A stretch of 64,000 nt of DNA. Origin: a virus. The stretch is from positions 1 to 64,000 of IMG/VR virus record IMGVR_UViG_3300043499_000058. One strand, 5' to 3'. Below the pieces are notes generated by a model. It was not told the origin of the DNA, ran no database searches, and saw only the letters and a program-made list of their open reading frames with translations. The position numbers and the translations under genes are program-made. Shown here one piece after another: positions 1,668-42,795 of the stretch; the stretch's first letter is position 1, and every line of letters starts with the position of its first letter.

Positions 1668-2054
1668 TCACTTGCCTGAAATCGGCTTGGAATAGCCCTT
1701 TGTGACAACTTCGATAGCTGCCCTCCTGCGCTCACCCATGAGTGGCGCGAGCTTGTCAAGCAGCGGGAGAATGCCGACCCCACTGATTTTGATGTGGTAG
1801 GTGGTCGAATGCTTACGGTTGCGTGGAGTGACAATGCTTGCCCTCGACGCGTCCAATAATGCAACCACCTTGTCGGCTATGTCCGCGTCCGTAGTTGTCA
1901 CCTGAATCATCGGATACATACGTCCCGTCCGACCACGTTGCAATCGAAAGCAACCCTCACCTTCGAGGTACCCCGCGAGCCAATGCAAATCACGCACCGA
2001 CAAACGGTGCGCATATGTCCGGCTCGGCCTTCCTGATCCGGGTCTAGCTGGCAC
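1668..2054 (-). CDS. LAGLIDADG homing endonuclease
   Basis: A 128-residue, single-motif LAGLIDADG protein (LAGYLEGEG near residue 28), expected to work as a homodimer cutting a long target. It starts at GTG 2054 and overlaps the stop of the HIRAN gene by 11 bases, with GAGAGGGG upstream. Later segments (LDKLAPLMGERRRAAIEV) match the second half of the fold. Unlike six other endonuclease genes here, I see no duplicated end of a neighbouring gene. Confidence 0.88.
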   Translation of the reverse strand: MPARPGSGRPSRTYAHRLSVRDLHWLAGYLEGEGCFRLQRGRTGRMYPMIQVTTTDADIADKVVALLDASRASIVTPRNRKHSTTYHIKISGVGILPLLDKLAPLMGERRRAAIEVVTKGYSKPISGK

Positions 2055-7713: not shown

Positions 7714-7742
7714 AGTTTACCAGCCCTGGGTCAATTACGCAA
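7714..7742 (-). promoter_or_regulatory. Promoter, TTGCGT/TAAACT class
   Basis: On the minus strand TTGCGT (7737-7742), 17 bases, TAAACT (7714-7719). The spacer carries a CCCAGGG core shared with the promoter at 11300-11328, so both belong to one class. The -35 is formed by the final codons of the HNH gene. Confidence 0.6.
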
Positions 7743-8130
7743 GTTCCTCCTCCCGAGTGGTTTCTCGGCGCGTCTGCCACCCTTTGCGAGCAGTATGCGA
7801 GCCGAGGTTTCCCTGTTGCCATTGATCATTGCAATGGCGAGTCCGATGTTCACCTACCTGCTTGACAATCAGGTTCACCCTTTGGTTGTCCAGTTTGTTT
7901 TCATTGTCATGATCTACCTGCTTGCGATCTCCCGGTTTCAGACCAGCAACTTGCCGATGCATGTAGACCTTCCGATATTTGTCAGGACTGACCTTCTGAT
8001 TCCGCACCGCGTAGCCCGTTGAGGAATCAAGAAACCATCGATGAACTGACAATTCTGGATACAGCGAGTCATCAACCATCGCGTACCCTGTCACTGTTCC
8101 GCCTCGTCCATTCAGCGCGATCCTACGCAA
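7735..8130 (-). CDS. HNH homing endonuclease next to ruvC-like gene
   Basis: 131 residues from TTG 8130 (GGGAGGA upstream). The HNH_3 signature is clear: YMHRQVAGLKPGDRKQVDHD followed by NKLDNQRVNL, in the layout of phage intron-type and free-standing HNH nucleases. Its last residues (TREEELA) repeat the last residues of the upstream RuvC-like protein (TREDEVA) with different codons, so the element seems to have inserted in the 3' end of that gene and left the old end fused to itself. Confidence 0.87.
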   Translation of the reverse strand: MRRIALNGRGGTVTGYAMVDDSLYPELSVHRWFLDSSTGYAVRNQKVSPDKYRKVYMHRQVAGLKPGDRKQVDHDNENKLDNQRVNLIVKQVGEHRTRHCNDQWQQGNLGSHTARKGWQTRRETTREEELA

Positions 8131-13150: not shown

Positions 13151-13313
13151 GTGACGCCTTCTCTCGATCAACCATGTGCCGCCAGTCCTGACAAAGTTCT
13201 TGCAGCGACTCGACCCCTGGCTGCATGAACGTCGGGATGTCAGAGCGTTCAGCCACAATCGCAGCGCCCGCAATGAATGGGTACCACTTCTTGTCGAACT
13301 CCTCCAACGTCAT
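13143..13313 (-). CDS. Small hypothetical protein
   Basis: 56 residues starting MTLEEFDKKWYPF with AGGGTG upstream; ATG overlaps the preceding TGA (ATGA). An acidic amphipathic protein containing Trp, Tyr and Phe, of unknown function. Confidence 0.63.
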   Translation of the reverse strand: MTLEEFDKKWYPFIAGAAIVAERSDIPTFMQPGVESLQELCQDWRHMVDREKASRG

Positions 13314-13528
13314 GTTGTCACCCTGCGCTTGATCTTCTTGCGCTTCTGCCACTTGATCGCCGTGGCCCCGCTGATCAGCTTCGGCGCGCAACACTCGCCC
13401 ACGTCAGCGTGGGCCGTGTAGTCAGCGTGCGTCTTGCGTGTGTTTTCACCGACCGGCGCAAGAAAAAGCTTGGCAACTACTCGCTCGCATGGTTTCTGAC
13501 AAACATCGCAGGTACTACTCGTCGCCAT
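13310..13528 (-). CDS. Small Cys-rich zinc-binding protein
   Basis: 72 residues with CDVCQKPC at the N-terminus and ECC near residue 46, then a strongly basic C-terminus (KWQKRKKIKRR). The pattern fits a single zinc ribbon with a nucleic-acid-binding tail. Its start overlaps the 26-residue RecA-tail remnant. Confidence 0.66.
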   Translation of the reverse strand: MATSSTCDVCQKPCERVVAKLFLAPVGENTRKTHADYTAHADVGECCAPKLISGATAIKWQKRKKIKRRVTT

Positions 13529-13595
13529 CGTCCTCGCCCTCCTCGTCGGCTTCCGGCGCGGAGATCGCCTTCGAGTTTTCAGTGATCAAGCCCAT
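13515..13595 (-). pseudogene. Duplicated remnant of the RecA C-terminus
   Basis: A 26-codon frame (ATG 13595, AAAGGC upstream) ending in an acidic tail. ITENSKAISAPEADEE aligns with the end of the RecA protein (IQQNSLSISNPESEDD), keeping the Ile, Asn-Ser, Ile-Ser and Pro-Glu positions while codons differ (AAC/AAT, TCG/TCT, ATC/ATA). The endonuclease gene 13586-13978 separates the two copies. It is best read as the old recA 3' end stranded by the insertion; whether it is translated is unknown. Confidence 0.6.
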
Positions 13596-13978
13596 GCTGC
13601 CTTTCGTGCCAGGGCTTTCTCATTGAAAGGTTCAACCAACAGGTTGTCAGCGATTTGTTTTTCGATCTCGACAAATCGCTTGCACTTTGTCTGCGAAACA
13701 AAATACGGTCGAATTAGCGCGAACGCGGCGCGAGCTTGGTTGCCACTGACAACCCACTCCCACCTGTCCCGATGACGAATGTTCTTCGACTTCTTCATCG
13801 AAATCGAGCCGCCAAACATTTCACGCAATCGCTGAACAGGCTCAGGCTCACATTGGTTCAACGACAACCGAAGATGCAACGACTGAAATCCATCGCCTCG
13901 CACTCGCCCATAGAGAATGCTGACGCACCCCTCGCCTTCAAAAAAGCCCGCAGCCCAAGCAGCGTCAGTCGCTTTCAT
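13586..13978 (-). CDS. LAGLIDADG homing endonuclease after recA
   Basis: 130 residues from ATG 13978 (GAGG six bases upstream, inside the end of recA). AWAAGFFEGEG near residue 8 is the LAGLIDADG helix. The single motif implies a homodimer. The final Trp-Ala codons match the recA sequence TGGGC, where the stranded RecA tail resumes, which locates the insertion point in the recA 3' end. Codon use is more AT-rich than in neighbouring genes, consistent with transfer. Confidence 0.88.
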   Translation of the reverse strand: MKATDAAWAAGFFEGEGCVSILYGRVRGDGFQSLHLRLSLNQCEPEPVQRLREMFGGSISMKKSKNIRHRDRWEWVVSGNQARAAFALIRPYFVSQTKCKRFVEIEKQIADNLLVEPFNEKALARKAAWA

Positions 13979-15050
13979 TGTCATCCTCACTTTCAGGATT
14001 CGATATTGACAAAGAATTCTGTTGGATCGCCCACACAAGCTCCTCGCGCATCTCGTCGTTGTCACGGAGATGCTTGCGGAACACAGACTCGGTGCCCTTC
14101 CACTCCTGGCCGTCCGAGTCCTCGTACGTGAACGTGTTACCTGACCTGACAATGAGCTTGTCCTCTAGGCCAAGGTGGATGATCTCGTACTCGGCGTCGA
14201 TCAAGCTGCGCTCGTAGTCGTAGAGGAACATCGACTCAAGCTCGGGCCTGGCCGTCTTTTGTTTTTCAGCCCGCACCGCGACCCAATGGCCAACCGGCAC
14301 ATCGACCGTCTGCACCTTGGCTCGCTTGACTCGCTTACGTCCCTTTTTCATGCGGTCGAGCTTCTTGAATTCGATCCGCACCGACGCGTAATGCTTGAGC
14401 GCCCGACCCCCCGGCGTCGTCGTGCCACCATAACCCGACACTTTGTCAATCAGTTGGTTCGTCCAGAGGATCAGGGTGTGGTCATTCTGCGCTGTGATAC
14501 GTCGCAGCGCGCGAGACATCATCCGTGCCCGACCAGCGGTACGGTCGTCTCCCTCCTCCACATCCTTTTTCAGTTCCTCTTGTGGAAGCAGAGAGGCCAC
14601 CGAGTCCACCATGACAACATCGGCGGGGTGGATGTCCTCCTCGGCATCTGCGATGACAAGAAGCTGCATGATCTTGATGAACTCCTCAGCCGTCTTGGGC
14701 CGATGGATCAGAAGCTCACCCAGGTTGCCCCCTAGATGCTCGAAGTACCGTTCATCGAACGATCCCTCAGAGTCCAAGAGCGCCACCGTTTCTCCACGCT
14801 GCTGCGCCCCCACCATTGTCATGCAGGCCACGGTAGTCTTGCCGCCGTGGTAGTCACCGAACAGTTCGACGTGTCGGCCCCGAGGGAAACCACCCGCTGT
14901 GATCCGGTCGATGACAAGCGAACCGCTCGGTACGCGCTCGACCTTCCAACGCGGATGGGAAGCCAGTGACAAAACCTGGCTTCCCATCTGTCCGTTGACT
15001 CGATCCATGAGCGCCACCGTCCGAGAGCTATTACGGCGAGCTTTTTTCAT
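13965..15050 (-). CDS. recA: RecA recombinase
   Basis: 361 residues. Walker A is GDYHGGKTT (about 64-72; classical GPESSGKTT), Walker B is VVMVDSVASLLP. The L2-loop region is recognisable: LWTNQLIDKVSGYGGTTTPG followed by LKHYASVRIEF. A basic insertion (MKKGRKRVKRAKVQ) and an acidic C-terminal tail follow. It catalyses strand exchange on ssDNA coated by the phage binding protein. ATG overlaps the preceding stop (ATGA). The C-terminal tail seems replaced by a recoded copy delivered with the endonuclease. Confidence 0.93.
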   Translation of the reverse strand: MKKARRNSSRTVALMDRVNGQMGSQVLSLASHPRWKVERVPSGSLVIDRITAGGFPRGRHVELFGDYHGGKTTVACMTMVGAQQRGETVALLDSEGSFDERYFEHLGGNLGELLIHRPKTAEEFIKIMQLLVIADAEEDIHPADVVMVDSVASLLPQEELKKDVEEGDDRTAGRARMMSRALRRITAQNDHTLILWTNQLIDKVSGYGGTTTPGGRALKHYASVRIEFKKLDRMKKGRKRVKRAKVQTVDVPVGHWVAVRAEKQKTARPELESMFLYDYERSLIDAEYEIIHLGLEDKLIVRSGNTFTYEDSDGQEWKGTESVFRKHLRDNDEMREELVWAIQQNSLSISNPESEDDNESD

Positions 15051-25741: not shown

Positions 25742-26059
25742 CTAAGAAGTGACAAGTTGCCTCCTTGCTTTCCGAGAAGCTCGCAGAGCGATAAGTGACA
25801 ACCTGTTGTGATCAAGACGAGAGATCAGATCGAAATTGCTGTGATGATTGTTTGATCGATCTCGGTCGCTGTGATGGACACATTGATCGCTTGTCAGTGG
25901 ACCAAACTTCCACTCCCCAATCAAACGATGCGCAGGCTTGTAGCCCGCAACTCGCTTGCCATCCTTGACAAAACAAATCGCTACGCGAAGGTAGCCATCG
26001 TTGTCGATGTAACCGAGAGGATGCTTGAGATCGAATCCGATTCGCCTGCGTTTTTTCAT
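25742..26059 (-). CDS. HNH homing endonuclease
   Basis: 105 residues from ATG 26059 (ATGA overlap; GGAG ten bases upstream). HNH_3 layout: HRLIGEWKFGPLTSDQCVHH and a following SDRDRSNNHHSNFDL. The N-terminus carries a Gly-Tyr-rich strand pair typical of this family. It lies between gene 26056-26361 and the helicase gene. No duplicated neighbour end is apparent. Confidence 0.82.
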   Translation of the reverse strand: MKKRRRIGFDLKHPLGYIDNDGYLRVAICFVKDGKRVAGYKPAHRLIGEWKFGPLTSDQCVHHSDRDRSNNHHSNFDLISRLDHNRLSLIALRASRKARRQLVTS

Positions 26060-26361
26060 CGAATCCAAACTCCTGCGATGAAAGCCTTGTTGATCCAGAC
26101 CTTCTTGCCTCGATCTTTCACAGCATCAAGTCCGCCGCCCATTAGCTCGAACTCGACTGCATACGTGTCTACATGACAAACCATCGCTGCGATGGTGTCA
26201 TCGGCCGAGAGTAGACCATCGCTCGGTGTTGCGAAGTCTGCGGCGAGAACAAGATCGACCAACGTTTTGTCACGCTTGGCTTTGATCAGCGCCATGTCGT
26301 ATCCGTACTCGCGCTTGGGCGCGCGGCCATGCCGCTTGCGTTCAACCATTACTGCTTCCAA
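26056..26361 (-). CDS. Hypothetical protein, possible RNase-H-like fold
   Basis: 101 residues. TTG 26361 sits five bases after AAGGAGG; an ATG four codons later is the alternative. Alternating strands and helices (LVLAADFATPSDGLLSADDT) are visible, but no catalytic signature can be claimed. It is first in the replication operon, behind the promoter at 26461-26490 and a structured leader. Confidence 0.68.
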   Translation of the reverse strand: MEAVMVERKRHGRAPKREYGYDMALIKAKRDKTLVDLVLAADFATPSDGLLSADDTIAAMVCHVDTYAVEFELMGGGLDAVKDRGKKVWINKAFIAGVWIR

Positions 26362-32016: not shown

Positions 32017-33431
32017 GTGACGGTGATCGTTCCCGGCACGCGCTTCTGCGTGGCCGTCGCTGTCTGATCAGTTGCCGGTGTGCTGACAACCACAGTAGCC
32101 ACCCCTGGCAGACCGAAGATCGCATCGATGAGTCCTGCGATGTAGACGGTGCCGCCGACTGGAACGGCATTGATGTAGTCCGTGATCGCCTCCTGCACCG
32201 ACGCGGTGACATCCGCGAGCAGATACCCACCTGCCAGCGTGATCGCCACAGTGACATTCGTAGAAACCTGAGTGAACGTGGCCACGTGAATCGTGATGTT
32301 GGCAATGTCGCGCATTGTCAGGTCTGCGAGAACTGCCGCGATGACCCCGGCACTCGGGATCGATCCATTCGGCCCTGCGATCCTGACTGTGACATGCCCC
32401 GGTGTGGCGACGCCCACGTTGTCATTGTTGAACGCCGTGGCTGAGTCAACACCCTCGATGGCCTCGGCCCACGATTCGAGATCGGCCATCGAGCCGGTGC
32501 GCGGGTTGCGGATGAAATCGAGCAAGCGGGCACGGAATGTTTCCATGTCCTCCTCGTCCGTAGCCCCGGCGAACGTGGTGGTGTTTGTCACGTCCGTTAC
32601 GCCGTCCGGCACCTGCACAAGCTCGCGGATCGCGCCGATGACCGCGTTGTATGCCACCCCCGAGTCCTCGGACTCGCCTGCGACTGAAATCCGCTCGGCC
32701 GTTGACTCTACCACCGGCGCACCTACCAGCGCCGTATCGTTGTCAGTCCCGGTAGTGGTCACGTTGTTGGCGAACGTCGCGTTGAGCGCGTCCACGTTCT
32801 GCCACGCCCCACCGTTCAGACGCCGGTAGAGCTTCCTGGCAGTCGTGCCAGGGCCACCGGCAGCGACCACGGTGATTGTCGCCTGCTTGTTGATCGCCAA
32901 CACCAGGGCATTCGACGCCGGGCCAATTTCAGTCTCCCCTGCTGCTGTGACAAACGAGTAAGCCCACTCGTACGTTCCCGCTGGCAGGGCACCTGCGCCA
33001 CCGTCCGTTGCGACGGGCGCTGCGGGATCGCCAGGATTCGGGATCACCGAGTCGGCCGTTGTCAGGTAATAGAGAACATCACCCTCGCCTACGTCCACAC
33101 CGACCATCGCGCCGGTCAAGATCGACGTGCCGCCAGCGCCAGTGAACATGAGCGTGCCAATCGCCTTGGTTCCCTGCTTTACTGACAAGCCGTACTGTTC
33201 GCCGTGACGACGAAGCTCGACAAGGTTCGCGGAAGTGACAAAGATGTTGTCCCGCTGAATTTGGTTGGCCAGGTACACGCCCTCCAATACCTCTGCCATG
33301 ACTTCAGCGAAGATGCGAACGTTGCCGTCCTCCTCCACGTGGATGTCAGAGATGCGAGACTGGTATCGCTGAATGATGTCAGCGACGATCTGATCGCGGT
33401 TCCTGTAGATCACGTCAGCCTCTATCGGCAT
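32013..33431 (-). CDS. Baseplate J-like wedge protein with inserted beta domain
   Basis: 472 residues. The ends match baseplate_J (Mu gp47/P2 gpJ): N-terminal QSRISDIHVEEDGNVRIFAE and QRDNIFVTSANLVELRRHGE; C-terminal FRARLLDFIRNPRTGSMADL, VTVRIAGPNGSIPSAGV and a final beta unit. Residues about 130-245 contain a fibronectin/Ig-like insertion (AGTYEWAYSFVTAAGETEIG; TARKLYRRLNGGAWQ). Its first four residues, MPIE, are repeated with other codons at the start of the adjacent endonuclease gene. Confidence 0.88.
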   Translation of the reverse strand: MPIEADVIYRNRDQIVADIIQRYQSRISDIHVEEDGNVRIFAEVMAEVLEGVYLANQIQRDNIFVTSANLVELRRHGEQYGLSVKQGTKAIGTLMFTGAGGTSILTGAMVGVDVGEGDVLYYLTTADSVIPNPGDPAAPVATDGGAGALPAGTYEWAYSFVTAAGETEIGPASNALVLAINKQATITVVAAGGPGTTARKLYRRLNGGAWQNVDALNATFANNVTTTGTDNDTALVGAPVVESTAERISVAGESEDSGVAYNAVIGAIRELVQVPDGVTDVTNTTTFAGATDEEDMETFRARLLDFIRNPRTGSMADLESWAEAIEGVDSATAFNNDNVGVATPGHVTVRIAGPNGSIPSAGVIAAVLADLTMRDIANITIHVATFTQVSTNVTVAITLAGGYLLADVTASVQEAITDYINAVPVGGTVYIAGLIDAIFGLPGVATVVVSTPATDQTATATQKRVPGTITVT

Positions 33432-33826
33432 GACAATTCCTCTCCGAAGTAGTAGTCATGCGTCTCGATCAGAAGCGCGGCCCGTTCTCGCTTGACAATC
33501 AGCCAAGGAAACAGTTGATCAAGTACGTTACGCGCATTGGCACCGTAGCATTGCCAACGCCAAGATTCCTTCTGCTCAGGTCGATTCGGCCGAAGCAGAA
33601 CGACGCTGCCACATCCAGTGACAACTTGAATGCGACGAATGATCTCCTCGTTTGTCATGGCAACTGCCATCGTGATCGCGCATCGCTGGTTTCGACGCTT
33701 GGTATCGAAGCACGTACCCTCGCCATCGAATAGGCCCGCAAGCCAAGCGACCTCTATTTCAGACATCTCTCGGGCAGGAACACCCCGCGTCTTGCCGCCA
33801 TTTCTAGTCCATACTTCGATTGGCAT
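33422..33826 (-). CDS. LAGLIDADG endonuclease at start of J-like gene
   Basis: 134 residues with VAWLAGLFDGEG near residue 28. GGAGGGGG precedes the ATG. The opening MPIE equals the start of the downstream J-like protein, using CCA-ATC-GAA where that gene has CCG-ATA-GAG. The element seems to have taken over the original start and supplied a recoded one. It overlaps the J-like gene by 10 bases. Confidence 0.88.
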   Translation of the reverse strand: MPIEVWTRNGGKTRGVPAREMSEIEVAWLAGLFDGEGTCFDTKRRNQRCAITMAVAMTNEEIIRRIQVVTGCGSVVLLRPNRPEQKESWRWQCYGANARNVLDQLFPWLIVKRERAALLIETHDYYFGEELSCR

Positions 33827-37724: not shown

Positions 37725-37804
37725 GTCCGTGTTGATTCCATGCCGCAGCGCCGGGGAGTCCGGTGGCCGATCCTCATTGTGTGGATACGGGATGTGAGCG
37801 ATGG

Positions 37805-38215
37805 CTACTCACCTACTTTCATTTCAGCAAGCAACGCCCAATCGTAATTGTCAGTGGCAAACTGATCTTTGGGCTGAATTCGTCCTCGCACTCGTCGTTC
37901 CTGAAAAGCAATTGCGATGACTGCCTGATCGTGTTTTTCAACCAAATACGGAAGCAGTTGCCGCAGAACCTCAGCGGCGTCTTGTGTACAAACCGTCCAC
38001 CACCATACATCCTGACTAGCTGGCCTCCTGACGGTGCCACCGAACATCGACTGCAACTTGTCAAGTGCAATACGACGTTTTTGACTGACAACCAACTTGA
38101 GCACAAATCGAACACCGCTAGAGGTTGTCTTACACTTCGCCTTTGACAAAGAAACACATCCTTCGCCATCGATAAACCCCGCAGCCCAAGCAAGATCAGT
38201 TGGAATGTGAGTCAT
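37805..38215 (-). CDS. LAGLIDADG endonuclease upstream of LysM-like gene
   Basis: 136 residues from ATG 38215 (TGACAATG after the tape-measure stop). LAWAAGFIDGEG near residue 8 is the LAGLIDADG helix; one motif, so a homodimer. The opening MTHIP parallels the downstream protein's AHIP with different codons (CAC-ATT-CCA and CAC-ATC-CCG). The final codons (GTAGGTGAG) repeat the tape-measure end GTAGGTGA. Confidence 0.87.
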   Translation of the reverse strand: MTHIPTDLAWAAGFIDGEGCVSLSKAKCKTTSSGVRFVLKLVVSQKRRIALDKLQSMFGGTVRRPASQDVWWWTVCTQDAAEVLRQLLPYLVEKHDQAVIAIAFQERRVRGRIQPKDQFATDNYDWALLAEMKVGE

Positions 38216-38217
38216 TG

Positions 38218-40413
38218 TCACCTACCCCCTTGCGGCCCACGCCGCTGCGCTTTCTTTTGGCCTCGGAATCGCGGAGCGCCCTGCACGTTGTCAAGCTTGA
38301 CCGGCAAGTAGGGTTCCTTGTTTGCGATGCGAAGCAGTTTGTCAAGATCCGCAGTCGGGACAAGGTGGACGGTGACGCCTGCCTCGCCCTGGATGTGAAC
38401 ACCGCCACCCCGACTCGGCCGTGCTGACAATCCACGATCCAACCGCTTGAGCCGAGCTTCAGCCGTCGCCGCTGAGATGTACCGATGCGAAAACGCTGAC
38501 AATACCTCTTGCTGATCGTCGGTCGGGCCTTCGTGGAATGACAATCCAGTAGCCCGAGTCGAACGACCGAGCTTTGCAAGGAACGGGAAGCCCTTTGGCA
38601 CCCGGCGTGCATCGCCTGAAGCGATTGCTCGCCTTGTGAATTCGTCCTGAAGCTGCTGCGCCGCGATGGGGGTTCCCAAAAGCGCCGCCGTTGCCCCTGT
38701 CGCTTTCAGTCCAGTCGCCAGGTTCTTTCTGCTCCACAGCGGCACCACCGGAGGCTTAGTCGTGCCGCCGCCAGTACCCGTCCCTGTCGGTGCGCCAGGC
38801 ATGAACCATGAGAGCGGATCGATGACAACCCAATACGGGTTCGAGCGCGAGCCTGAACGTGTTTGTCCTTCGCCTGTAGCTGAAAACGCCCCGAGTCCAG
38901 AACCGACGACTGACGCCGCCGCAAGCTGCGGTGCCCGCGTTGCGAGGCCAGGGAAACGGCCCATGATGTTTTTCAGGCCAGGGATGCGCGCTGCGCCCTT
39001 CCCGAGCATTCCGACGATCCCCGCGCCGAAGATCAGCCTAGAGGCCAACGCTGCCCCGCCTACGGCCCCCACAGCCCCCGTAACGGCCGACGGGTTCTGA
39101 TCGGTAATCCAATCACCAATCCGGTTGATCTGCATGGCGATGGGCCGCAGCGCCGGGTCAGCACCGCGAGCAACTGTCAGGCCCACGTTGCGCTGAATCT
39201 GCCCAAGCTGCTGATACGCCCTTTGTCTGTTTCGCTGCTCGGCCATCTGCTTGCCAAGCTCCGCGTCTTTGGCTTTGTTGATCCCGTCAACGAATTTTTC
39301 AAGCGCCGGGATTCCACCCTGCGCCATGAGGTTGAGGAACTGCCTGAAAGATTCCTGACGGCCAAAGAGCTTCGAGGCCAATGTCAGGTTGATACCTGAC
39401 GCACCCGAGCCAGCGATAGCCGCGTCGTCGTCCAAGCCCTCGACACCGAGCGCCATCGGGTTCGAGAAGCGAGCGCCATTCGGGGCTACCGCCTGCATCA
39501 TCTTCTGAAGCACCTGAAAACCGCCAAGCGCGCGCAGTTGCGACGGGTCAGTTGGCAGACCGGCCTGCCGAAACGCTTTCATCTGATCGTCGGTCTGCGG
39601 CCGGATGATCTCGGACGCGAGCAACTGCGTCACGCCTCGACCGATGACAGCCGGTGAACCACCGGAGCGAGCCGCGAGTCCGTACACGGCCCAAATCTGC
39701 TCGGGGGTCATGCGCGATGCGGTCTGCGCGGCACCGAGTCGGCCAATGTCACGCGCGATGTCCTCACCGCGAACAGTAGGCGTCTCTTGCAGAACGCGAG
39801 CGATGATGTCACGCATACGTGCGCCCTGAGCGCCAATGTCACGCGGCGTACCGGGAGGGGTGGCACCGATGATCATTCCGGCGACACCACCGCCGAGCGC
39901 CTGCGGGTCTGCACCTTCCGCGAACATCGAGATTTCAGCCATCGTCTTTGCGTATTTGTCAAGCATGTTGAGTCCACGCTGACCACGTACGTCGTCACCG
40001 AACGATGAGTAGAAGCGGATCATGTGCTGCTGGATGTCATCGACGGCGATCCCGAATCGGTTGCTCAGGTCGATGGCGATGTCGCCAACCTGATTCAAGC
40101 CGCGCCCGAGACTTGTCAGTTTGCCGTTGGAATCGATCTCTCCCGCAAGCGCATCAATTTCACCCAGGCGGTCAAGGAACTGGCCGAGGCCACTGACAGC
40201 GGACGCTGTTGCGTACACCGTGGCCCCGGCCAGCGCGTATCTGATCGTCGTACCGACCGCGCGCATCTGCTGACCCCACAGCCCGAGGTTGCGCGTGTGC
40301 GAACGAACCTGCCGGTCGAAACCGACAAGCCCGCCGATGTTCCGCTCGATGTCAGCCCGAAGCTGCGCACCGTGCGAAGTCCAGATGAGATTAAGTCTGT
40401 AGTCAGACGACAC
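38218..40413 (-). CDS. Tape measure protein
   Basis: 731 residues from GTG 40413 (GAGG upstream). Helical N-terminus with GLWGQQMRAVGTTIRYALAG, then long Ala/Gly-rich regions with hydrophobic stretches near the middle (GAVGAVGGAALASRLIFGAG) and a basic C-terminus. It follows the frameshifted chaperone genes as expected. At roughly 1.5 angstroms per residue it predicts a tail of about 110 nm. Confidence 0.88.
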   Translation of the reverse strand: MSSDYRLNLIWTSHGAQLRADIERNIGGLVGFDRQVRSHTRNLGLWGQQMRAVGTTIRYALAGATVYATASAVSGLGQFLDRLGEIDALAGEIDSNGKLTSLGRGLNQVGDIAIDLSNRFGIAVDDIQQHMIRFYSSFGDDVRGQRGLNMLDKYAKTMAEISMFAEGADPQALGGGVAGMIIGATPPGTPRDIGAQGARMRDIIARVLQETPTVRGEDIARDIGRLGAAQTASRMTPEQIWAVYGLAARSGGSPAVIGRGVTQLLASEIIRPQTDDQMKAFRQAGLPTDPSQLRALGGFQVLQKMMQAVAPNGARFSNPMALGVEGLDDDAAIAGSGASGINLTLASKLFGRQESFRQFLNLMAQGGIPALEKFVDGINKAKDAELGKQMAEQRNRQRAYQQLGQIQRNVGLTVARGADPALRPIAMQINRIGDWITDQNPSAVTGAVGAVGGAALASRLIFGAGIVGMLGKGAARIPGLKNIMGRFPGLATRAPQLAAASVVGSGLGAFSATGEGQTRSGSRSNPYWVVIDPLSWFMPGAPTGTGTGGGTTKPPVVPLWSRKNLATGLKATGATAALLGTPIAAQQLQDEFTRRAIASGDARRVPKGFPFLAKLGRSTRATGLSFHEGPTDDQQEVLSAFSHRYISAATAEARLKRLDRGLSARPSRGGGVHIQGEAGVTVHLVPTADLDKLLRIANKEPYLPVKLDNVQGAPRFRGQKKAQRRGPQGGR

Positions 40414-40774
40414 TGAAAACCCTCGCTTCGATAGCTTCGATTACCTCAAGCGCGCCTGCTCGTTTCAGGATCAGATGTGGAGTAATTCGTTTGAGGATTT
40501 TCAGGATGTCCTCACGTCGATTGACTGCAAGCACACGCATTTCCCGAGTGCCATATGCCTTCCGGCTTTGCTTGGCGATACGGCTCTGACAAACGATTCC
40601 GTTGACGTTCAGGAAGGTTTCCAACGCGTGAATTACGTCAGACGTTTTGTCAACCTGGCCCCAGGTGATCTGGAAATGGATTCGTTCCTTTTTGTCAACC
40701 CACCACAGGATCGAGCCATCACCGTCAGTGAAGCCCGCCACGTAAGCCCATGTCATCGGTTTTGCGCTACTCAC
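40403..40774 (-). CDS. LAGLIDADG endonuclease at start of tape measure gene
   Basis: 123 residues from GTG 40774 (AAGGAG upstream, GTGA overlap). WAYVAGFTDGDG near residue 9 is the LAGLIDADG helix. It begins Met-Ser-Ser (GTG-AGT-AGC), as does the tape measure protein (GTG-TCG-TCT): same residues, all different Ser codons. It overlaps the tape measure start by 11 bases. Confidence 0.87.
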   Translation of the reverse strand: MSSAKPMTWAYVAGFTDGDGSILWWVDKKERIHFQITWGQVDKTSDVIHALETFLNVNGIVCQSRIAKQSRKAYGTREMRVLAVNRREDILKILKRITPHLILKRAGALEVIEAIEARVFSVV

Positions 40775-42366: not shown

Positions 42367-42795
42367 CTAGCTCACCCCCTCGAACGAACGGGTAACGCGA
42401 CCGTCCGTAATGGTTCCTTCCATGATTTCTGCCATCCTTTCTTCGATGTCCTCGACGGCCTTGATCGCCTCGTCGTTCTTGACAATCAGATACGGCAACA
42501 TCGCATAGAGCATCTTGTAGACGTTTGCCACACCATTGACAGCCAGAGCGAACGAGCCGCTATGACCCTTTTTCAAGCGATCAGGCCGATGATGGATTTC
42601 GACAGTCGCCTTGATTCCTTCGATTTCAAGGAAAGTGACAATGGCGTCAAGAACTTCTCGACGGTTCTGATAGATTTTCAGCCTACTTTGCCGCCGAATC
42701 GTTCCACGCGTCTGCCGACCAACACGGCAATCCACACAGCCTTCGCCATCGAAGAATCCAGCGACGTAAGCCCATGAGATCGGCAACCATGCCAT
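42367..42795 (-). CDS. LAGLIDADG endonuclease between sheath and tube
   Basis: 142 residues; GAGGAGG then TGACA precede the ATG. WAYVAGFFDGEG near residue 8 is the LAGLIDADG helix. It opens MAWL (ATG-GCA-TGG-TTG), like the downstream tube protein (GTG-GCC-TGG-CTC). It thus sits on the strong ribosome site that probably belonged to the tube gene. Confidence 0.88.
   Translation of the reverse strand: MAWLPISWAYVAGFFDGEGCVDCRVGRQTRGTIRRQSRLKIYQNRREVLDAIVTFLEIEGIKATVEIHHRPDRLKKGHSGSFALAVNGVANVYKMLYAMLPYLIVKNDEAIKAVEDIEERMAEIMEGTITDGRVTRSFEGVS

Follow-up and report, generated by a model that had tools for sequence, protein, structure and literature searches.

The 3' end of recA in this virus genome is present twice, once on either side of a LAGLIDADG endonuclease gene, and the duplication is real and not due to chance. 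We think it quite probable that ~14039-13595 is an insertion, a homing cassette consisting of a replacement recA 3' end and a free-standing LAGLIDADG endonuclease gene. As the sequences show, the insert separates recA from its native 3' end, with the replacement tail closing the recA frame and the stranded native end holding the start of the next gene. The window analysed here (positions 1-64000) comprises nearly the whole of a 64,030-base virus record; it encodes tail sheath, baseplate and terminase genes, and most of its genes lie on the minus strand. It was compared mainly with G008 (CALMZP010000084.1), a phage contig binned with an Acidobacteria bacterium and found by profile search of a bacterial genome collection, which is colinear with the window, matching blocks sharing ~67-87% DNA identity. 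The features at the recA locus are as follows.

13965-15050, minus strand: recA, 361 aa, a hybrid of native body and replacement C-terminal tail (Pfam RecA 8.7e-49; 71% identity to G008 RecA)
13965-14039, minus strand: attached (replacement) recA 3' end, recoded and AT-rich, with the tail proper at 14027-13965
13586-13978, minus strand: gene for a 130-aa LAGLIDADG endonuclease, its first 14 nt shared with the end of recA (LAGLIDADG_1 E 4.8e-6; AlphaFold2/Foldseek)
13515-13594, minus strand: stranded native recA 3' end, beginning with TGG GCT (also the last endonuclease codons), followed by TG and ATC ACT and closed by the recA stop TAG
13529-13542, minus strand: GGAGGG (13542-13537) 5' of the next gene's ATG, within the stranded tail; likely ribosome-binding site, from the sequence
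13310-13528, minus strand: next gene, zinc-ribbon-like small protein MATSSTCDVC (homologues behind recA in 8/8 relatives)

Two recA tails flank the endonuclease gene

The last 20 codons of recA encode IQQNSLSISNPESEDDNESD, and the frame behind the endonuclease gene that repeats the recA end is ITENSKAISAPEADEEGEDDGDE. A preliminary description of this DNA had aligned a 26-codon frame at 13595-13515 with the RecA end. The two sequences scored 50 with BLOSUM62, a score reached by none of 20,000 shuffles, and the proposed alignment holds beyond the start of the frame, but its first three codons (Met-Gly-Leu) are not RecA, as shown by G008. Seven of the first 12 residues are identical between the two tails (3 of 200,000 shuffles were as good), and of the window's 2,279 stop-to-stop segments, the stranded frame matched the RecA end best after recA itself, the next score being 33. 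We also assembled a set of endonuclease loci, in which 80 loci, less near-duplicates removed by hand, plus those of the window, G001 and G003 gave 75, 63 of them with an upstream gene end. Among these 63, the window recA locus alone beat all cross-pairs in tail likeness.

The copies differ in coding and composition, as the preliminary description had also noticed. Codons differ at five of the seven residues shared in the first 12 (I, N, S, I, S, P and E), and GC content is 0.381 in the attached tail against 0.622 in the stranded one (recA body, 0.588; endonuclease gene, 0.522; genome, 0.584). The attached tail is more AT-rich than every 63-nt segment of the genome, sampled every 21 nt. The tails differ in protein too, with 9 of 20 residues identical between the attached and the native one, so selection for synonymous change is insufficient as the sole explanation.

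Comparison with relatives identifies the stranded tail as the native end

Eight records of relatives carrying recA (G001-G008, of which G001 and G002 are alike at recA) were reached by profile scans of phage RecAs. Single-protein scans of viral_contigs with RecA and with the endonuclease yielded no relatives, and a DNA search against phages yielded none either; tblastn with RecA gave RecAs at ~30-35% identity among the matches listed, and tblastn with the endonuclease gave three weak matches. All eight relatives have one recA tail and no endonuclease at the site, and none has two tails. In G008, the single tail overlaps the next gene directly by 14 nt, and an overlap of the same length joins the stranded tail to the next gene of the window. 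The stranded tail matches the recA end of the G008 empty allele at 53 of 75 alignment columns and at 22 of the 24 first bases, whereas the attached tail matches it at 35 of 75 columns. The expectations that the stranded tail would resemble a RecA end and would lie nearer to insertion-free recA are both borne out. In the seven distant records (G001-G007) the tails are too diverged for protein comparison to separate the copies, the attached/stranded scores against six distinct tails being 17/17, 15/16, 11/11, 30/33, 6/7 and 23/19. Since the stranded tail is nearer to the single tail of endonuclease-free G008, and the relatives are single-tailed, it is the old, native recA end.

The G008 empty site reads GAGGAG TTGGAATGGGCTATCGCTGAAAACTCG. 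At the left junction, the window tracks G008 as far as GAGGAG and then reads CTTGTGTGGGCGATCCAACAG, with codon differences starting right after GAGGAG; at the right junction, it reads GCA TGGGCT TG ATCACTGAAAACTCG. Comparison with G008 shows recA picking up again at TGG GCT (13594-13589), the two codons with which the endonuclease gene encodes its Trp-Ala end. This coincidence had been claimed from the window alone; since the G008 empty site carries the same two as recA codons, the endonuclease's final Trp-Ala codons are recA's own. Two extra bases, TG (13588-13587), create the endonuclease stop, and RecA continues at ATC (13586). Part of the native site is kept at each junction; a native-coded attached tail would rebuild the whole site, which we propose as the rationale for recoding. 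At 14 nt, the stretch shared by recA and the endonuclease gene (ATGAAAGCGACTGA) is as long as the one that recA natively shares with the next gene (ATGGCGACGAGTAG); GAGG (13988-13985) and the endonuclease ATG both lie within the attached tail.

The inserted gene is predicted to encode a single-motif LAGLIDADG endonuclease

The 130-aa protein matched Pfam LAGLIDADG_1 with 27.8 bits (cut-off 23.1). Its AlphaFold2 model, built on a 22-sequence alignment, had a mean pLDDT of 90.1 and was matched by Foldseek to I-CvuI (E 1.1e-5), I-OnuI and I-MsoI. A sequence search of the PDB gave weak matches only, the best being 5gkk (E=0.021). Motif and predicted fold together indicate a single-motif LAGLIDADG homing endonuclease, for which cleavage and homing are presumed. 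The PHROGs family label for this protein, 'HNH endonuclease', is not supported by the fold. Elsewhere in the window there are two HNH_3 endonuclease-like genes, at 25742-26068 (E 3.7e-8) and at 7735-8130 (8.3e-4, below the cut-off).

If the insert were a spliced intron or intein, its removal would give RecA back its native tail. An apparent intein with an endonuclease motif inside does lie at the ATP-binding loop of RecA in the relative G001 (L009/L089, about 25480-24712; GDY / CVSPDTA...SHN / SSGKS), but splicing at the window site is extremely improbable. No Rfam family matched the window at the gathering threshold, around the recA site nothing relevant appeared at E<=10, and Pfam found no splicing domain. 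Neither a catalytic RNA core nor in-frame protein-splicing domains, the marks of a group I intron and an intein, were found around the endonuclease gene. The attached tail reaches its stop codon before the insert ends, this stop preceding the endonuclease frame but for the overlap, and the ~445-nt insert is nearly filled by the endonuclease gene.

The same design recurs at gene starts and gene ends

At E<=1e-3, a profile search of the window and G001-G008 found 16 LAGLIDADG frames, of which the window has six, G008 eight, and G003 and G001 one each. Besides the gene at recA, those of the window are as follows.

33422-33826, minus strand: LAGLIDADG gene on the duplicated start MPIE of baseplate gene 33431-32013, by sequence comparison
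37805-38221, minus strand: LAGLIDADG gene on the duplicated start THIP/AHIP of the gene leading into 37724-37029, orientation reversed
40403-40774, minus strand: LAGLIDADG gene on the duplicated start VSS of gene 40413-38218, the same insertion being found in G008
42367-42795, minus strand: LAGLIDADG gene on the duplicated start MAWL of gene 42365-41973, the stranded copy being found in G004 and G007
1668-2054, minus strand: LAGLIDADG gene fused to the stranded end KPISGK of upstream gene 2466-2044, by comparison with the empty G008 site

The recA case had been described as the 3' version of a start-swap in the tail genes. The comparison agrees with this: the tail-gene endonucleases of the window sit on duplicated, differently coded starts (MPIE, MAWL, VSS and HIP), and G008 adds further start-swaps (NYRGRKLD, MSQL, MAWL, VSS and a short one at 4.0 kb) and a second tail-swap. 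At the MAWL site of the window, the stranded copy ATGGCATGGTTG is identical in G004 and G007, and the attached copy is GTGGCCTGGCTC. Two start-swaps are weak (G008 54.0 kb and G001 35.8 kb), and the LAGLIDADG frame at 45.4 kb in G008 is a fragment without a swap. At HIP in the window and at 35.8 kb in G001 the pattern is reversed, the endonuclease-joined copy being the divergent one. At 2054 in the window, which we also class as a tail-swap, the upstream gene's own end is replaced without an overlapping duplicate.

In the tail-swap at 65.5 kb in G008, the upstream gene ends in VGLRLVKTERPTG and the endonuclease frame in VGLRLVKTERPTDG; the protein sequence VGLRLVKTER is identical in the empty, attached and stranded copies, and at 8 of its 10 residues the attached copy uses another codon than the empty allele. 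The same gene has a tail-swap at 27.4 kb in G003 (attached, GLRLIGDATWLG; stranded, GMRLIGSEGE). A search for further tail-swaps among the 63 endonuclease loci found none at the all-cross-pairs threshold; the G003 locus, which reached only P=0.046 there, was accepted later on direct comparison of its copies. When the same set was examined for start-swaps, at least two residues after the start were shared in 6 of 55 pairs, against 1.3% of cross-pairs, and four of the six came from the window or G001.

These loci also bear on whether the recA structure is an assembly artefact, in which two strains, with and without the endonuclease, were joined. The virus record comes without end repeats or a completeness estimate, and the recA junction is known from one assembly. 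Structures of the same kind, however, occur in other assemblies (G008 and G003), and the VSS insertion lies at the same place in the window and G008; we regard an artefact as very unlikely.

Several further observations were made at these sites. The MPIE gene start carries an endonuclease VII family gene in G008 (C84 53237-52803) and a LAGLIDADG gene in the window (33826-33422). The G008 protein (Pfam 8.8e-18) lies outside the 16 LAGLIDADG frames, and both insertions show a duplicated start with different codons. In L176 and L150, from other phage contigs, the beginning of the LAGLIDADG gene is a copy of that of the next gene, hardly recoded or not at all (ATGGGTAAT twice; ATGACAACC/ATGACAACA); these are perhaps young insertions. 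Two attached gene starts, at 37802 in the window (HIP) and 61750 in G008 (MAWL), read ATC GCT in place of the ATG of the empty allele; they may use ATC start codons, or the genes may start further in.

The hexamer TGACAA/TTGTCA occurs 426 times in the window against a base expectation of 20.4 (TGACAC, 15; AGACAA, 31). Its copies lie on either strand and fall in several frames. It occurs 369 times in G008, 167 in G001, 128 in G002 and 113 in G004, and near or little above expectation in G003, G005, G006 and G007. Some endonuclease starts fall within TGACAATG.

Attached copies are largely recoded and stranded copies mostly resemble the empty allele

Codons were compared at 11 short, hand-picked and hand-aligned junctions, counting only residues shared by the compared copies. 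The junction sequences were checked against the genomes, some via slightly longer or shorter words. Five sites were left out before counting: G008 54041, which could not be aligned clearly; window 2054, which lacks an overlapping duplicate; the VSS site of G008, whose insertion is that of the window; and G001 35836 and G003 27359, which would contribute 0/2 and 2/5 same codons. Stranded copies had the same codon as the empty allele at 29 of 39 positions, and attached copies at 8 of 36. Between stranded and attached copies, 9 of 47 codons were the same, whereas 19.1 were expected from random codon-usage draws (P=0.0006); some of the codons compared are constrained by overlap with the endonuclease start or stop. 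With the stranded codon fixed, 16.7 were expected (P=0.004), and without the second copies of two sites the count was 8 of 42 (P=0.004). In ordinary orthologues of the window and G008, codons were kept at 129/239, 177/288, 69/110, 314/542 and 160/251 positions. The recoding can be sharply bounded: at NYRGRKLD, the primase gene of G008 departs from the window's empty allele in six of eight codons, and two residues on, six consecutive codons are unchanged. The shared VSS endonuclease has kept 108 of 123 residues and 57 of 102 codons between the window and G008, which indicates that it is under purifying selection.

The attached tail might instead be the recA end of a diverged, AT-richer donor phage that came with the endonuclease, its codons differing through donor distance alone. 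We consider this a serious possibility, if on balance a doubtful one. The GC contents (38% in the attached tail, 52% in the endonuclease gene, 58% in the genome) fit such a donor, as does the difference in protein, and the authors of a study of comparable Glomus hybrids attribute them, in the sections available, to transfer from other species (PMC3630166). A donor does not readily account for the sites elsewhere at which protein is identical and codons differ beyond random draws, or for gene sequence that is normal again immediately past the junction. Furthermore, a degenerate-pattern search for a donor of the attached tail gave no match; a second degenerate pattern, for the stranded tail, also gave none.

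An in-place duplication, in which insertion doubled the target end and the attached copy drifted afterwards, would be consistent with the short direct repeats at the junctions (TGGGC...ATC) and with the start repeats of L176 and L150, which are almost without recoding. We find it unlikely, since the adjoining recA shows no similar drift, GC falling from 0.588 to 0.381 exactly at the tail, and the stranded copies are still like the empty allele.

Discussion

We favor the reading that a homing cassette inserted into recA. The endonuclease, probably as a homodimer, would cut cassette-free recA 3' ends of co-infecting phages near the codons for E-W-A-I-x-E-N, and repair of the cut recA would copy the cassette in. 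The replacement tail would keep RecA whole and, being differently coded, would be neither re-cut nor prone to recombination with the stranded copy that would delete the endonuclease. Through the overlap, the attached tail would also give the endonuclease gene its ribosome-binding site and start. The native tail presumably persists because it carries the ribosome-binding site and start of the next gene. The start-swaps would be the mirror image, an endonuclease with a recoded start. Counting against the cassette reading are the reversed pattern at HIP and at 35.8 kb in G001, the protein difference between the recA tails, the 2054 locus without a duplicate and the lack of a donor.

On a broader reading, about which we are evenly divided, these elements would be natural home-and-rescue drives. 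Small cassettes would target either terminus of genes that the phages need (for recombinase, primase, sheath, baseplate and other tail proteins), and the terminus copies would be selected to keep the protein and change the DNA, escaping cutting and recombination. Different nuclease families would use the same trick, namely LAGLIDADG in the window and endonuclease VII in G008, at the same gene start. If this is true, the spare, rewritten end that it brings along would be what allows a selfish endonuclease to occupy a needed gene without an intron or intein. Each native junction would also be a predicted cleavage site, for many small endonucleases at once, and gene ends in such phages should be read with the warning that they can be foreign.

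The fold, the one LAGLIDADG motif per chain and the size of ~130 aa liken the recA endonuclease to I-CvuI, I-MsoI and I-CreI, which are intron-encoded; sequence similarity to them is, however, low (16-19%). The free-standing homing endonucleases of T4-like phages, seg and mob, are described as intergenic or as dividing a gene into two functional parts (nrdA, gene 60) (PMC2988022). Like them, the recA endonuclease gene has no intron, its overlap with the upstream gene end suggests translational coupling, and needed genes are possible targets; unlike them, it has the recA end present twice, a duplicated, recoded terminus being absent from the part of the T4 account available (PMC2988022). Such termini are likewise not described in the available portions of reports on nuclease genes at exchange boundaries (PMC10448857) and on lactococcal HNH enzymes (PMC12724721). 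A literature search of titles and abstract openings, with most subscription journals outside its coverage, found no phage report of them.

The closest anatomy is fungal. The atp6 gene of Allomyces macrogynus is reportedly a mitochondrial hybrid made by a mobile endonuclease ORF. According to the available part of a study of Glomus sp., an inserted C-terminus and an endonuclease ORF lie ahead of the native C-terminus in atp6, atp9, cox2 and nad3, the ORF being of the LAGLIDADG type in three of these four hybrid genes; in atp6, one C-terminal copy is 91.2% identical to a close relative, and the two copies are 63.5% identical (PMC3630166). As in the fungal hybrids, the ORF at recA lies near the gene's 3' end, the inserted C-terminus closes the gene and the native C-terminus is stranded; the native copy is nearer to insertion-free relatives (here 53/75 against 35/75), and the inserted copy differs largely at synonymous sites. 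Because its anatomy matches, we place the recA case with these hybrids and not as a new kind, an analogy that would lie in the way of working, with no descent claimed. Unlike them, it concerns a phage and recA, has start-swaps as its mirror image, extends to a second nuclease family and is one of many cassettes in its genome, and it is known here from sequence alone. If true, a principle from a few fungal mitochondrial genes would extend to phages, to starts as well as ends, and repeatedly per genome.

It would also be a natural counterpart to gene drives with a recoded rescue. HomeR is an engineered CRISPR/Cas9 home-and-rescue drive in Drosophila (PMC7968924). The likeness would be one of principle, a nuclease targeting an essential gene within a cassette that brings a recoded rescue. 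The HomeR rescue copy is said to be recoded as well. Unlike HomeR, the recA cassette is natural, and would work with one protein and a terminus of ~20 codons.
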